Part shown: positions 16,480 through 61,941 of the stretch, in pieces
How the letters are laid out: each line of letters opens with the position of its first letter
How positions within the stretch are numbered: position 1 is the stretch's first letter
From: Bacillota bacterium
GTDB lineage: Bacteria > Bacillota > Negativicutes > Sporomusales > CTSoil-080
Assembly: GCA_017889625.1 (NCBI GenBank)
Contig: JAGGAD010000023.1
Location: 1-64,000, forward strand
Reading direction: 5' to 3'
Length of the DNA stretch: 64,000 nt
Notes under the pieces: generated by a model
What the model was told of the DNA's origin: nothing
Database searches by the model: none
The model's input: only the letters and a program-made list of their open reading frames with translations
Translations under genes and position numbers: made by a program

Positions 16480-16600
16480 CGCATATGTGAAAATATTTTA
16501 TCATTATTTTGGCGTTGTTACTAGTAAGATTTAAATGTTAAAGTTTACTACAAGCTTAATTTTCTTACGGTTGAGGGTAACGGTACGGATATAAGGTATA

Positions 16601-16695
16601 AGTATATTTCGATCGCTAAATAATATTGATGAGAGTTGTTTGAAGGTAAAATAGGCAGTACTAGGCTTCGATGGCCTTGGTACGGCCCTATTTTT
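16601..16695 (+). repeat. Intergenic element, copy A, ending in a hairpin
   Basis: This noncoding stretch matches 52937-53027 closely: shared AGTATATTTCG, AAATAAT, GATGAGAGTT, ATAGGCAGTAC and AGGCTTCG blocks in the same order. It ends in a bulged hairpin (GGC-GTAC-AGGC against GCCT-GTAC-GCC, about 16654-16687) and a T-run. Stem changes between copies are mostly on the 3' arm and keep pairing, as expected for a structured RNA. It ends before the promoter of the next gene, so it may be a separate small RNA or a mobile repeat. Confidence 0.6.
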
Positions 16696-16750
16696 GTTGT
16701 GGCTGGCGGGGCTGTCAGTAGAACCGTCCTGGTGACATGCATTTTAGTTG

Positions 16751-16805
16751 TTGACGGGAATGATAAAATATGTAATAAATTAAATATACATACCCGTTGG
16801 TATTC
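16751..16805 (+). promoter_or_regulatory. Promoter of the first duplicated tetR gene
   Basis: TTGACG (16751-16756) and AATAAA 17 bases later match, nearly base for base, the promoter of the second copy at 17748. An ACATACC half-site follows, but the second arm of the dyad is degraded compared with copy 2. Confidence 0.5.
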
Positions 16806-16823
16806 TGGAGGTTGGAAAGATAT

Positions 16824-17411
16824 ATGAGAAAAGATGAGATTATTAAGGTTACTTTGCGGTTATTTCTTTCACGAGGGTATCGTAATGTTTCGCTTAACGA
16901 TGTAGCCGATGAAATTGGAATAACGAAGGGCGGGATATACCATTATTTTAGAAGCAAAGAAGATTTGTTAAGTCAAGCGGCTGAATTCCTTTTTGAGCAC
17001 ATTAAAGCAAAGCACATAGCGTTATTTAATAATGATAAAAGTTTGCGTGAAATATTAATGGAGATCCTTAGAGATAAAGAGGTAGAAAGGTATATTAACA
17101 ATTTAATTGGTCTTGAACATCATGAGACTTTTAATGATGAATGGGGGCTATTATTTGAAATTATAACGCTTTGTCCCGATATGCTCCAACGCTTGGAAAG
17201 AGACAATTTAGAAGTAAAGGATGTTATAAAAGAAAAGTTGCGAAAGTTAATAGATAAAGGAGAAATGAGAGCAGATGTTGAGGTGAATGCAACATCTACG
17301 ATTATATTTACGATTATGATGGGGCGGAGAACACTACCGTTCCAATATGTGGATCAAAACGAAAGAGAACAAATTGTGGAGAATTTCTGTAAAATGGTTA
17401 GTAAGGGGTGA
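16824..17411 (+). CDS. TetR-family regulator, first of a duplicated pair
   Basis: A 195-residue TetR protein. The helix-turn-helix spans residues 1-48 (R-K-D-E-I-I-K-V-T-L-R-L-F, then I-T-K-G-G-I-Y-H-Y-F-R-S-K-E-D-L-L), and the C-terminal half is helical. It is clearly paralogous to the protein at 17823-18398, sharing nearly the whole N-terminal domain and the C-terminal E-R/A-x-E-Q-I-V-E-N-x-C-K-M-V-S. ATG 16824 follows GGAGGTTGGAAAG. A degenerate copy of the tolC start lies behind it (17479), so this gene was part of a duplicated tetR-tolC unit. It may still regulate the pump or have acquired another ligand. Confidence 0.85.
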   Translation: MRKDEIIKVTLRLFLSRGYRNVSLNDVADEIGITKGGIYHYFRSKEDLLSQAAEFLFEHIKAKHIALFNNDKSLREILMEILRDKEVERYINNLIGLEHHETFNDEWGLLFEIITLCPDMLQRLERDNLEVKDVIKEKLRKLIDKGEMRADVEVNATSTIIFTIMMGRRTLPFQYVDQNEREQIVENFCKMVSKG

Positions 17412-17478
17412 AACGGAAAAGGTTGGCGATGAAACCATAGTTAAAACTACATTTTAAAGATTGGAAATAGGAGGATCC

Positions 17479-17540
17479 GTGTGCCGACAATCTATTTTAT
17501 AACTTATGGCATTTGTTAGAGGAGCATTTGGTTGTCGAAA
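17479..17540 (+). pseudogene. Relic of a duplicated tolC 5' end
   Basis: Starting at GTG 17479 behind ATAGGAGG, the codons read M-C-R-Q-S-I-L-stop-L-M-A-F-V. They line up with M-R-Q-R-S-L-L-L-L-G-A-F-V of the intact TolC at 18468, including the ribosome-site context. A TAA replaces codon 8 and the similarity fades after about 60 bases. This is best explained as what remains of a second tolC gene after deletion. Confidence 0.5.
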
Positions 17541-17575
17541 CCGGGGATTTTCTGTTCCTGAGTATTGATAATATG

Positions 17576-17617
17576 AGTCGTAGTATACCAAGATATTGAG
17601 TATACTACGACTTTTTG
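17576..17617 (+). terminator. Terminator after the tolC relic
   Basis: A perfect 13-base stem (17576-17588 and 17600-17612) followed by a T-run. Confidence 0.85.
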
Positions 17618-17747
17618 TATAGTAAAACTGTCTGTGACATATTATGGTTACTAGTTTTTGCTGTAATCATTGTAAGTCAACGGGGTTAGTAGACGCAGGT
17701 TATAAAGAAAAATAATGATATGATCCTTGGGGGAAAAAATTTAGCTG

Positions 17748-17804
17748 TTGACCGGAATGAGAAAATATGTAATAATCTAAACATACCGACTGGTAGGTAT
17801 GTTT
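17748..17804 (+). promoter_or_regulatory. Promoter and TetR operator of the efflux operon
   Basis: TTGACC (17748-17753) is followed after 17 bases by AATAAT. Just downstream is a perfect dyad AAACATACC (17779-17787) and GGTATGTTT (17796-17804), the size and position of a TetR/AcrR operator. Autorepression of the tetR-tolC-hlyD-RND unit is the simplest reading. Confidence 0.65.
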
Positions 17805-17822
17805 GAAGGGCTAATTGAATAT

Positions 17823-18398
17823 ATGAGAAAAGATGAGATTATTAAAGTTGCTTTGCGGTTATTTCTTTTACGAGGGTATCGTAGTGTTTCACTTAGCGAT
17901 GTAGCCAATGAACTTGGAATAACGAAGGGAGGGATATACCATTATTTTAAAAGTAAAGAAGATATGTTGATTCAAACGGCAGAATTCTTTTTTGATCTTA
18001 TAAAAACAAAACACATAGAGTTATTTGATAATGATAAAGGTTTGTATGAAATATTACAGGCTGTCATTAGAGATAACGAGATAGAAACGTATATTAATAA
18101 TTTTATTGGTAATAAGGCACCTAATGATGAAATGGGACTATTATTTGAATTTATGACGCTTTGTCCAGAGCTGCTGAGGCACTGGGAAAGGGTTAATTTG
18201 GAGATAATTACTGCTATTCAAGGAAAGTTGCAAAAGTTAATCGATAAGGGAGAAATGCGGTCGGATGTTGAGGTGAATGCATTAGCAGCGATTTTGTTCA
18301 CGCTTATGATTGGTCGTAGAACGATTTCGATGCAATATGCAGATCCAAGTGCAAGAGAACAAATTGTGGAGAATTTATGTAAAATGGTTAGTACTTGA
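17823..18398 (+). CDS. TetR-family regulator of the RND efflux operon
   Basis: A 191-residue TetR protein, paralogue of the one at 16824. The helix-turn-helix is in residues 1-48 (I-T-K-G-G-I-Y-H-Y-F-K-S-K-E-D-M-L), followed by a helical effector domain. ATG 17823 was chosen because GAAGGG lies upstream and the alternative ATG 17799 falls inside the operator. It is first in the operon with tolC, adaptor and RND genes (70-base gap to tolC). By family precedent (AcrR, TtgR) it should repress the pump until a drug-like or amphiphilic ligand binds. Confidence 0.88.
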   Translation: MRKDEIIKVALRLFLLRGYRSVSLSDVANELGITKGGIYHYFKSKEDMLIQTAEFFFDLIKTKHIELFDNDKGLYEILQAVIRDNEIETYINNFIGNKAPNDEMGLLFEFMTLCPELLRHWERVNLEIITAIQGKLQKLIDKGEMRSDVEVNALAAILFTLMIGRRTISMQYADPSAREQIVENLCKMVST

Positions 18399-32485: not shown

Positions 32486-33550
32486 ATGAAAATTTCTAAA
32501 ATCAATGTAAAAAAGGTGCAGATTCCGTTAATTGAACCGTTCAAGATTTCTTTGGGGACGATTTCATCTTCAATGGAAGCATTAGTAGAGATTGAAACCG
32601 ATGAAGGTCTCGTAGGATATGGTGAAGGGGCTGCCGGTATTTTAATTACCGGAGAAAATTTAGAAGGAACGGTTCGTTCTATTGAGGTTATAGGAAAAAA
32701 TCTGATTGGTATTGATCCGTTGGAGCTTGAAAAAATTTATTGGATTATGGATCGGGCTTCGGCATATGCACCTTGTGCCAAAGCGGCTATTGATATTGCC
32801 TGCCACGATTTGATAGGAAAAATATTTAATCAGCCGTTGTATAAGATTCTGGGTGGCCATGATAATAAGCTTGATACCGATATTACTGTGGGAATTAATG
32901 AACCCGAGATTACCGCAGCGAAAGCAAAAAAACATATTGAAAACGGATTTGATACTATTAAGGTAAAAGTCGGTTCGACAATGGAAGCTGATATAAAAAG
33001 AATTCGTTTAATTCGTAGTGCTATTGGTGCAGCATCAAAAATTCGGATTGATGCGAATCAAGCTTGGTCGGCTAAAGAGGCCGTACGGATGTTAAATAAA
33101 TTAGCTGAGTTTGATATTGAGTTGGTAGAACAACCGGTTAGAGCTTATGATATTGATGGTTTAGAGTTTGTAACTAAAAATAGTCCGATTCCGGTTATGG
33201 CTGATGAGAGTGTATTTACGTCTAAGGATGCGATGAAGCTTGTACAACGTCATGCCGTGGATTATGTTAATATTAAATTGATGAAGTGCGGCGGATTACG
33301 GGAAGCAATAAAGATCAATACGGTTTGTGAAGCTGCCGGTGTTGAATGTATGCTTGGGTGTATGGCAGAGGAAAGTAATATCGGTGTTACCGCCGCCGCA
33401 AGTTTGGGGGCTGCTGTTAAGAATATTACGCGGGCTGATTTAGACTCCCATTTTTCTTTGAAAGAGTTACCGTTTAAAGGCGGCGTTCAGTCGGTTAACG
33501 GAAAAAGTTTAGTGTTGAGTGAGGCCCCGGGCTTAGGCCTTATCAAATAA
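32486..33550 (+). CDS. Dipeptide epimerase (Ala-Glu epimerase-like, enolase superfamily)
   Basis: A 354-residue member of the muconate-lactonising-enzyme subgroup. The catalytic lysines are K159 and K161 in I-K-V-K-V and K264 in N-I-K-L-M-K. Metal ligands are D189 (R-I-D-A-N-Q), E215 (V-E-Q-P-V) and D240 (M-A-D-E-S). This set defines dipeptide epimerases, which interconvert L-Ala-D-Glu and L-Ala-L-Glu during murein recycling, or other dipeptides. The C-terminal specificity residues are L-D-S-H-F. ATG 32486 follows AGGGAGATG, 27 bases after the transporter. Position supports peptide salvage; exact dipeptide uncertain. Confidence 0.87.
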   Translation: MKISKINVKKVQIPLIEPFKISLGTISSSMEALVEIETDEGLVGYGEGAAGILITGENLEGTVRSIEVIGKNLIGIDPLELEKIYWIMDRASAYAPCAKAAIDIACHDLIGKIFNQPLYKILGGHDNKLDTDITVGINEPEITAAKAKKHIENGFDTIKVKVGSTMEADIKRIRLIRSAIGAASKIRIDANQAWSAKEAVRMLNKLAEFDIELVEQPVRAYDIDGLEFVTKNSPIPVMADESVFTSKDAMKLVQRHAVDYVNIKLMKCGGLREAIKINTVCEAAGVECMLGCMAEESNIGVTAAASLGAAVKNITRADLDSHFSLKELPFKGGVQSVNGKSLVLSEAPGLGLIK

Positions 33551-51713: not shown

Positions 51714-52874
51714 ATGGAAAGTAATTCAATATTAAACAACAAACAGTTTATTTCAATCTTTCTTATAGCGTTTTTAGTGTATTTTTCAAATGGTATGCTT
51801 GCACAAACCTTGCCTAAATATGCATTTGATTTAGGTGCTACGTCGCAAATCATTGGAGTACTGTCAGGCACTTTTGCGATGTGTGCCCTGCTGCTTCGTC
51901 CTGTTTCGGGGCTGATGGTGGATAATGAGGATAGAAGGCTGTTGCTTCGCATCACCATCGGGGTTATTTTAGTGTCAGTTACCGGATTAACATTTTCTAA
52001 ACAAGTATGGCTGCTAATCGTATTTCGCGGTATCAATGGACTGGGCTGGGGCATTGGCTCAACCTTGTGTATGACAATAGCCTCCAGTTGTTTTAGCAAG
52101 GAAAAATTGGGTTCGGGAATTGGCATTTACGGATTAGGCCAAACCATTGCCCAGGCAATTGCGCCGGTGATTGGGTTAAATGTGGCACAAGCTTATAGTT
52201 ATAATTTCCTATATCAGTTCAATGTCATTATTTGTGCGGCAGCGTTCGTACTTACATATTTTATTAAGCTTGATACGTCGTCAAAAAAAGAGCGAAAATA
52301 TTCGGTAAGCCTGAAGGAAATGGTATGCTTGTCGGCTATCCCGCCTAGCGTAGTGACTTTATGTAATAGCATCGCACAAGCTTCTGTAACCGCATTTCTG
52401 GTCATCTTTGCCAATAGCATTTCGGTGACTCAAATTGGCGTGTTTTTTACCGTCCAGGCGGCTATTGTACTCGTTGCCAGACCACTTTGGGGAAAGTTGA
52501 CAGACAAATATGGTTGTTTAAAGGTTATCATACCCTGTGAGTTTCTCATTGCGTCTGGCTTGTTGACTATTTTCTTTTCCCAGGCCCTGTGGCAGTTTCT
52601 TCTTGCCGCCGTGCTTGTTGGCGCGGGAACGGCAGGCAATCAGCCAGTACTTATGGCGGAATGTATTAGACGAGCGCCTCCCGAGCAACGGGGAAGAGCC
52701 AGTAATACCAGTTATATGGGAACTGATATCGGGGGAGTTGTTGGCAGTAATCTAGCCGGCCTGCTGGTTACTTTGATTGGGTATCGAAATTTATATTTAA
52801 TTTTTATATTGCCAATTTTAATGGCTACTTTTATGTACACTGTTTTTGAAAAAAGAAGGGTTGGCAATTTGTAA
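51714..52874 (+). CDS. MFS transporter, 12 helices
   Basis: A 386-residue major facilitator of the drug/sugar-efflux type (YfcJ/AraJ-like). The first half shows L-L-R-P-V-S-G-L-M-V-D and R-G-I-N-G-L-G-W-G; the second half V-A-R-P-L-W-G-K-L-T-D-K-Y-G, the conserved loop motif A. Twelve hydrophobic segments are seen. ATG 51714 follows GGGAG. There is no regulatory or enzyme gene in the unit, so the substrate is unknown. Confidence 0.85.
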   Translation: MESNSILNNKQFISIFLIAFLVYFSNGMLAQTLPKYAFDLGATSQIIGVLSGTFAMCALLLRPVSGLMVDNEDRRLLLRITIGVILVSVTGLTFSKQVWLLIVFRGINGLGWGIGSTLCMTIASSCFSKEKLGSGIGIYGLGQTIAQAIAPVIGLNVAQAYSYNFLYQFNVIICAAAFVLTYFIKLDTSSKKERKYSVSLKEMVCLSAIPPSVVTLCNSIAQASVTAFLVIFANSISVTQIGVFFTVQAAIVLVARPLWGKLTDKYGCLKVIIPCEFLIASGLLTIFFSQALWQFLLAAVLVGAGTAGNQPVLMAECIRRAPPEQRGRASNTSYMGTDIGGVVGSNLAGLLVTLIGYRNLYLIFILPILMATFMYTVFEKRRVGNL

Positions 52875-53242
52875 AGTGTCAAAATTTGATTTTTTTCCTG
52901 CCGAGGAAGCGCGGAACAACCGTTAAAGTTAATATGAGTATATTTCGGGCGCGAAATAATCTCGATGAGAGTTTAAAGACAATATAGGCAGTACAAGGCT
53001 TCGCTGGCTTTGCACTGCCTTGTTTTTGTGTTCGGAAAGAGTGCACTGTCCCCGTGAGAAAGAAGTGTTTATATAGTTAGTTGGGTACTGGTATGAGATT
53101 AGGGGAAATAATATACGTGGTATTTGGCTGGAAGACGGGAACTATATACGTGAAACCGGCGGTGGGGTTTAATTTGGAGATATACCATGGGCTGGATAAT
53201 TTGATATAATAAATAGTTGGTTGAATTTTTATTTGATTTATT
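52875..53242. other. Gap with the second copy of the intergenic element
   Basis: It contains the repeat copy B (52937-53027) and about 200 bases without further features, apart from a short GTCCCC-containing stretch also seen near 47500. Confidence 0.5.
52937..53027 (+). repeat. Intergenic element, copy B, ending in a hairpin
   Basis: This is the partner of copy A (16601-16695): same ordered blocks AGTATATTTCG, AAATAAT, GATGAGAGTT, ATAGGCAGTAC and AGGCTTCG. The terminal hairpin pairs AGGCAGT with ACTGCCT (about 52986-53020), followed by TTGTTTTTG. It lies downstream of the MFS gene and 215 bases before the GGDEF/HD-GYP gene. Orientation matches copy A. Confidence 0.6.
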
Positions 53243-58153: not shown

Positions 58154-58233
58154 ATGTACATCGCTCAAATAATAATCGGCAGAGTCGCCTCAATAGTACT
58201 ACTTAGGTAGTGGTGCTATTGAGGCGCTTATTT
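58154..58233 (+). promoter_or_regulatory. Leader hairpin before ridA, weakly related to element A/B
   Basis: A block ATCGCT-CAAATAAT...AGAGT recalls the core of the repeats at 16601 and 52937. It is followed by a strong terminator hairpin: CGCCTCAATAG (58186-58196) with its complement (58216-58226), then a T-run. It may be a third, divergent copy or a coincidence. Confidence 0.4.
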
Positions 58234-58272
58234 TTTAATCGCCGATGCAGAAATAAAACAAGAGGTGGAAAG

Positions 58273-60634: not shown

Positions 60635-60756
60635 AGTGGATGTCAGTTTTTATTTGGGAGAGAAATAGTTTATTGGCTGCGAAACCGTTTTAGTTCTGAT
60701 TTTTACTATAATTTCGTGGCCGTATATTTTAAAATAAAGATAAGTTAATGAGACAA

Positions 60757-60798
60757 AGGCGTCTGATTCCTGCGGGAGTTAGACGCCTAAATTTTTAG
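60757..60798 (+). terminator. Terminator upstream of the OCD-like gene
   Basis: AGGCGTCT (60757-60764) pairs with AGACGCCT (60781-60788), followed by AAATTTTTA. Confidence 0.75.
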
Positions 60799-60810
60799 GG
60801 GGTAATAATT

Positions 60811-61941
60811 ATGCTACCAGCAATTGATTTTTTGTATTTGAATGAGGAAGATATGATAAAAGCAGGCGTTATGGATATGAAGGGCTGTATCGAAGCGATG
60901 GAGGATATGTTAAAGGCGATGAACGTCGGTGACTATGTGATGGGGGGAGCTAACCACAACTCGCATGGGGTTATGGTTACGTTTCCCGAAAAATCGCCAT
61001 TTCCGAATATGCCGGTCGACGGACCTGACAGAAGATTTATGGCGATGCCGGCATATTTGGGGGGCAAATTTGATATGGCGGGGATGAAATGGTACGGGTC
61101 CAATGTAGCCAACCGGGGAAAAGGGCTGCCTCGTTCGATCCTGATGTTAATGCTCAATGATAAAGATACGGGAGCGCCAAAGGCATTAATGTCAGCCAAT
61201 ATATTAAGTGCTTACCGCACCGGAGCCATACCGGGCGTAGGGGTCAAGCATCTGGCGATAAAGGATGCTAAGGTTGTCGCAATTGATGGACCGGGGATTA
61301 TGAATCGAACCGCGTTAAAAGCCTGTCTCTGTGCTCGTCCAAAGATTGATACGGTTAAAATTCATGGACGGGGGAAGGCATCAATAGATAAATTTATCAC
61401 TCATGTAAAAGAAAACTATCCGCAGATAAAAACAATAGAAGTTGCCGATAGCCTTCAAGAAGCAATTAAGGATGCGGATATTATTAGTTCTGCGACATCA
61501 GGCACCGTGGGGTCAGCTACTCATCCTTATATAAAAGAAGAATGGATAAAACCAGGGGCGTTACTTTGTTTGCCGGCTAATATCCGCTTCGATGATGACT
61601 TTATTCTTAACCGGGCGAAGAACGTTGTCGATAATATAAAACTTTATGAAGCTTGGGCGGAAGAACTGCCGTATCCAGGGTTTGAAATAGTCGGGTTGAT
61701 CGGGGTGCATTTTATGGATCTAGTCCATGATGGTAAGATGGCACCATCGCAAATTGATGATTTAGGCGATATTTTGCTGGGCAAGAAACCTGGTCGTAAG
61801 GATGATGAGGAAATAATCATTTATTCTGTTGGCGGAATGCCGGTTGAGGATGTTGCTTGGGGGACAATGATTTACCGTAATGCGCTAAAAATGGGTATCG
61901 GTCAAAAGTTAAATCTTTGGGATAAACCAGCAATGGCTTGA
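60811..61941 (+). CDS. Ornithine cyclodeaminase/mu-crystallin-family enzyme
   Basis: A 376-residue NAD(P)-dependent protein of the OCD/mu-crystallin family. The central Rossmann part starts near residue 145 (V-V-A-I-D-G-P-G-I-M-N-R-T-A), with G-P-G-I-M in place of the usual G-x-G-x-Q, and S-A-Y-R-T-G-A is the conserved substrate loop. M-K-W-Y-G-S-N is the catalytic-lysine segment. Family members deaminate ornithine or reduce cyclic imines and ketimines. A related branch has been called tyramine oxidase subunit B; I cannot verify that here. ATG 60811 follows AGGGGG. It is directly upstream of the HcnABC-like oxidase genes, 22 bases away. Confidence 0.82.
   Translation: MLPAIDFLYLNEEDMIKAGVMDMKGCIEAMEDMLKAMNVGDYVMGGANHNSHGVMVTFPEKSPFPNMPVDGPDRRFMAMPAYLGGKFDMAGMKWYGSNVANRGKGLPRSILMLMLNDKDTGAPKALMSANILSAYRTGAIPGVGVKHLAIKDAKVVAIDGPGIMNRTALKACLCARPKIDTVKIHGRGKASIDKFITHVKENYPQIKTIEVADSLQEAIKDADIISSATSGTVGSATHPYIKEEWIKPGALLCLPANIRFDDDFILNRAKNVVDNIKLYEAWAEELPYPGFEIVGLIGVHFMDLVHDGKMAPSQIDDLGDILLGKKPGRKDDEEIIIYSVGGMPVEDVAWGTMIYRNALKMGIGQKLNLWDKPAMA

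Follow-up and report, generated by a model that had tools for sequence, protein, structure and literature searches.

Small RNAs that act by base pairing can occur in bacteria as siblings, of which OmrA/OmrB are an example, and ANTAR-target RNAs are leaders made of two hairpins with a terminator. Here we describe an intergenic element that occurs twice, as copies c1 and c2, in a stretch of 64,000 nucleotides (the window; contig JAGGAD010000023.1) from a bacterium of the Negativicutes. As in siblings of the OmrA/OmrB type, two short units of related sequence lie between genes, with the 5' segment in common and an intrinsic terminator at the 3' end; in contrast to that type, our searches found neither a sigma-70-like promoter nor homologues for c1 and c2, and the copies lie 36 kb apart rather than side by side. 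With ANTAR-target RNAs they share a small hairpin followed by a terminator, but they have neither the conserved hexaloop pair nor a second hairpin overlapping the terminator, and the first hairpin of c1 carries a C-U mismatch. Their 3' halves belong to a family of Negativicutes intrinsic terminators with the stem GGCAGTACAAGGC / GACCGTACAAGGC, whose other members, unlike c1 and c2, lack the 5' block. We tentatively read c1 and c2 as a sibling pair of short terminated transcription units, probably noncoding RNAs, a reading that we hold at somewhat less than an even chance.

A two-copy element with sharp ends

The original prediction described blocks recurring in the same order at two places, and the recurrence is confirmed: c1 (16597-16700, + strand) and c2 (52933-53032, + strand) are collinear, about 79% identical and set in dissimilar flanks. 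In a genome-wide BLAST search the two matched over their full length (79% identity, E 2e-15), and a repeat finder independently split the pair into two neighbouring families without gaps, one covering the 41-nt block (85% identity) and the other a 42-nt stretch (83%). Local alignment of the 5' regions scored 52, a value reached by none of 1000 dinucleotide shuffles (shuffle mean 14.4). The similarity begins just upstream of the block and stops at the end of the terminator T-run, and alignment of the flanks of c1 and c2 found no similarity outside the element. Such limits would be natural for a transcript that carries its own terminator. The hairpin and T-run predicted at the end of each copy are present, despite the absence of both hairpins from the list of a strict terminator scan. 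As for the claim that neither copy overlaps a coding frame, both lie between genes of annotated size, but ORFs of up to 64 aa do overlap them; these are short, show no obvious relation beyond DNA similarity and are apparently incidental. The two-copy element is genuine but an orphan, present as a whole at only these two places of the 3.3 Mb genome. It consists of two modules, an unusual 41-base 5' block (TATRAGTATATTTCGNNCGCNAAATAATNTNGATGAGAGTT; 35 of 41 positions identical between copies) and a generic 3' terminator stem (Table 1).

Table 1. Features of the two copies and of the adjoining promoter region
Feature	Position	Strand	Basis
c1 5' block TATAAGTATATTTCGATCGCTAAATAATATTGATGAGAGTT	16597..16637	+	85% identity to c2 block; two genome copies at <=3 mismatches
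c1 A-rich linker	16638..16652	+	11/15 alignment columns same as c2 linker
c1 intrinsic-terminator-like hairpin and T-run	16653..16700	+	fold; recurrent stem family, members elsewhere
c2 5' block TATGAGTATATTTCGGGCGCGAAATAATCTCGATGAGAGTT	52933..52973	+	85% identity to c1 block; two genome copies
c2 A-rich linker	52974..52985	+	c1/c2 alignment
c2 intrinsic-terminator-like hairpin and T-run	52986..53032	+	same stem family; fold z -4.62 for the element
TetR gene promoter region, separate from c1	16743..16803	+	second copy upstream of second TetR gene, 17740-17800

The 3' module is a recurrent terminator stem

The 3' module is built as AUAGGCAGUACAAGGCUU-loop-AGCCUUGUACUGCCU with a T-run after it. 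Its stem, GGCAGTACAAGGC...GCCTTGTACTGCC, stands alone, without the 5' block, at about six further sites in the same genome; places that match this module alone came up on contigs C65 (twice), C13, C94, C22 and C111 in a genome search with a model built from the pair. The same stem or its variant GACCGUACAAGGC is present in other Negativicutes genomes, and the sites inspected are mostly the ends of protein genes or positions directly after tRNA genes. The 3' module is a recurrent generic terminator stem, and since it recurs at gene ends it holds no special information about the element. A covariance-model search across Negativicutes, the check proposed with the original prediction, likewise recovered the shared terminator half and nothing else. 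A terminator stem that is common throughout a class can make unrelated intergenic regions resemble one structured RNA family, which is why terminators should be set apart before any covariance model is made.

The stem itself deserves a remark. In the form GGCAGTACAAGGC or GACCGTACAAGGC, it is found in several Negativicutes families at gene ends or after tRNA genes, and its members are more alike than terminators usually are (L003, L018, L044-L046 and L048 in this genome; L011, L023-L025, L027, L030 and L040 in others). In a related genome, a c-di-GMP-I riboswitch (Rfam RF01051; L026:342-426, - strand) lies about 1.1 kb from a terminator that matches the pair model.

The recurrence of the terminator half at several genome sites is also the one observation that fits a miniature mobile element or REP-like repeat (MITE/REP-like), as the original prediction had suggested in part. 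Such a repeat would be expected in many dispersed copies, against the two found at full length, and the pieces that do recur are terminators at gene ends. The element ends and flanks, read by eye, revealed no terminal inverted repeats and no target-site duplications, and searches of a phage collection with c1 and of a plasmid collection with c2 gave no match. We therefore regard this suggestion as unlikely, the least probable of the explanations considered here.

The 5' block stands alone

At up to three mismatches, exactly two copies of the 5' block occur in the 3.3 Mb genome, and a reversed control gave 0. In a set of about 85,000 species, a long stretch of the block was nowhere matched exactly. 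With a shorter core there were 23 matches, scattered over unrelated phyla, in which the left half agrees at 1-7 of 18 bases; exact-pattern matches to the block in GTDB and viral contigs are chance only. A block-only model searched against 380 genomes of the class retrieved the two copies at E ~1e-10, a value that is not independent because the model was built from c1 and c2 themselves, followed by a continuum from E 0.017. The matches inspected (L080-L098) were coding-like sequence without a terminator, and no credible homologue of the block emerged from the 380 Negativicutes genomes. Neither the orthologous loci in two related genomes (G001 and G002) nor the upstream regions of relatives of the GGDEF-HD gene beside c2 showed synteny at c2 or a recognisable element. 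No Rfam family (Rfam 15) scored at or above its gathering threshold in the window, so Rfam leaves the proposal of a small RNA or mobile repeat unrefuted; relaxed scans of c1 and c2 gave nothing credible. A DNA-uptake sequence, GTACAAGGC, was considered and rejected (16 copies, against 14 for the reversed control).

The copies share primary sequence rather than pairing

The original prediction held that changes in the terminator stem keep it paired, and this was not borne out: comparison of c1 with c2 found 0 pairs changed on both sides, in a test that has little power with two sequences. With the alignment register fixed, c1 and c2 differ at 8 of 26 pairs; two stay paired through a one-sided change and six are broken in one copy. 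When folded freely, c1 regains some terminator pairs through a register shift. Taken as whole elements, c1 is no more stably folded than its shuffles (z -1.07) and c2 is more stably folded (z -4.62). What the copies have in common is primary sequence, not pairing.

Gene context and promoters

On one side of c1 lies a chemotaxis-receptor (MCP) gene on the - strand and on the other a TetR gene on the + strand, in divergent arrangement. The TetR gene has its own promoter block beyond the c1 terminator; this block is duplicated at a second TetR gene (82% identical over 61 nt), where c1 is not, and its best promoter-like score falls on TTGACG at 16751. For this reason c1 is not the TetR leader, and with its other neighbour divergent it should, if transcribed, be its own unit; it is not the 3' end of a neighbouring gene either. 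The context of c2 is different, with an MFS transporter gene on one side and a PAS-GGDEF-HD gene on the other. This copy starts 58 nt after the MFS stop codon at 52874 and may be no more than the 3' end of the MFS transcript. The promoter block near c1 is part of a larger arrangement, a tandem duplication of the TetR-family gene with its promoter block (D1, D3, D5) at 16743-18393, upstream of an outer-membrane efflux gene.

Each copy also holds a tiny frame (ATGAGAGTTGTTTGA in c1, with the product MRVV; ATGAGAGTTTAA in c2, with MRV), which raises the possibility of a cis-acting leader that uses the terminator to attenuate the gene downstream. The two copies differ in length there by exactly one codon, and both frames close at once. 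Against such a leader, the ATG is preceded by no Shine-Dalgarno sequence, the folds offer no alternative antiterminator pairing, and the TetR gene after c1 is served by its own promoter block past the terminator, which together make it very unlikely.

A scan for sigma-70-like promoters found none above background upstream of either copy: the best score was 3.0 for c1 and c2 alike, and random 38-nt stretches had a median of 4.35. This miss weighs most heavily against the small-RNA reading and keeps confidence in it moderate to low; it makes membership among sibling small RNAs less probable rather than excluding it, because the scan was for the sigma-70-like type alone. The best -10 score falls in both copies on TATATT, at the same place, and this is one of the observations that could point to DNA instead of RNA. 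The 5' block might be a regulator-bound site, namely an imperfect palindrome TATTTCG-NN-CGnnAAATA overlapping the -10-like TATATT, so that c1 and c2 would be a duplicated regulatory site beside ordinary terminators and not an RNA gene. Read by eye, the half-sites of c2 match at 8 of 9 positions and those of c1 at 6, and common primary sequence without common pairing is in keeping with such a site. On the other hand, the shared sequence runs about 15 nt past the palindrome and then into the terminator, there is no -35 element, and the genome holds no further copies of the block at up to three mismatches. Judged from these sequence features, the regulatory site seems unlikely.

A candidate pair of sibling small RNAs

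As a candidate for an undescribed small RNA, the element keeps that description as the best reading available, but neither a promoter above background nor homologues were found. Duplication would have produced two sibling transcription units of about 85-100 nt each, in which a 5' segment shared in primary sequence (GTATATTTCG..CGC.AAATAAT.T.GATGAGAGTT) is followed by a generic intrinsic terminator. We infer that both are transcribed, from a start near the beginning of the block, and noncoding; the two related RNAs would be trans-acting and would probably base-pair through the 5' segment, which is weakly structured and rich in A/U and in purines. A narrower version, to which we give slightly less credence, is that they form a lineage-specific trans-acting pair whose 5' recognition segment resembles no Rfam family, in a genus of the Negativicutes that has been poorly sampled. 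If transcribed, they would be a lineage-restricted small-RNA pair in the Negativicutes, a class rarely paired with small-RNA terms in the literature searched.

A search for targets gave one lead. The 9-mer ACTCTCATC, complementary to the block, has 14 sites in the genome, of which 2 are c1 and c2 themselves, against 8 for a reversed control, and is not clearly enriched. The best candidate is a 5'-UTR upstream of a 271-aa ORF (L151; p=0.03, uncorrected), which is not significant once the number of sites is allowed for.

The strongest competitor is that c1 and c2 are leftovers without function, produced by a duplication or by recombination at the recurring stem of the terminator, and are now diverging. 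Two copies without homologues elsewhere, the lack of a promoter and of covariation, and an identity that is roughly even across block, linker and terminator all suit a leftover; selection on the block is not demonstrated, since its conservation barely exceeds that of the linker and the terminator. The dissimilar flanks speak against it, because the duplicated segment would then have to end at the T-run by coincidence, and we consider a leftover rather improbable. We accordingly rank a sibling RNA pair as most likely, then a diverging leftover, then a duplicated DNA site.

Further copies proposed in the window

The leader at 58154 had been offered as a divergent third copy. A search of the window with the pair model did not return it at E<=10, and its alignments (p=0.019 to c1, through one short match, and 0.66 to c2) are uncorrected; relaxed Rfam matches in the region fall far under gathering scores. 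We reject it as a copy. Behind a dehydrogenase gene, the hairpin there (58186-58226) forms a strong terminator-like stem of 18 bp. A possible fourth copy at 60717-60795 is likewise at chance level (12 bits, E 2.2 in the window, alignment p 0.23-0.37).

Some structures in the window merit mention in their own right. ARAGORN reports a 'tRNA-Stop (tta)' at 32604-32692, within a 354-aa ORF (32486-33550), which is probably a false positive. The stretch 58186-58240, between a Glu/Leu dehydrogenase gene and a RidA-like gene, forms a very stable 18-bp hairpin with a T-run (z -7.8). At 60717-60795, a terminator-like hairpin immediately precedes the ribosome-binding site of the gene at 60811 and is a possible attenuator.
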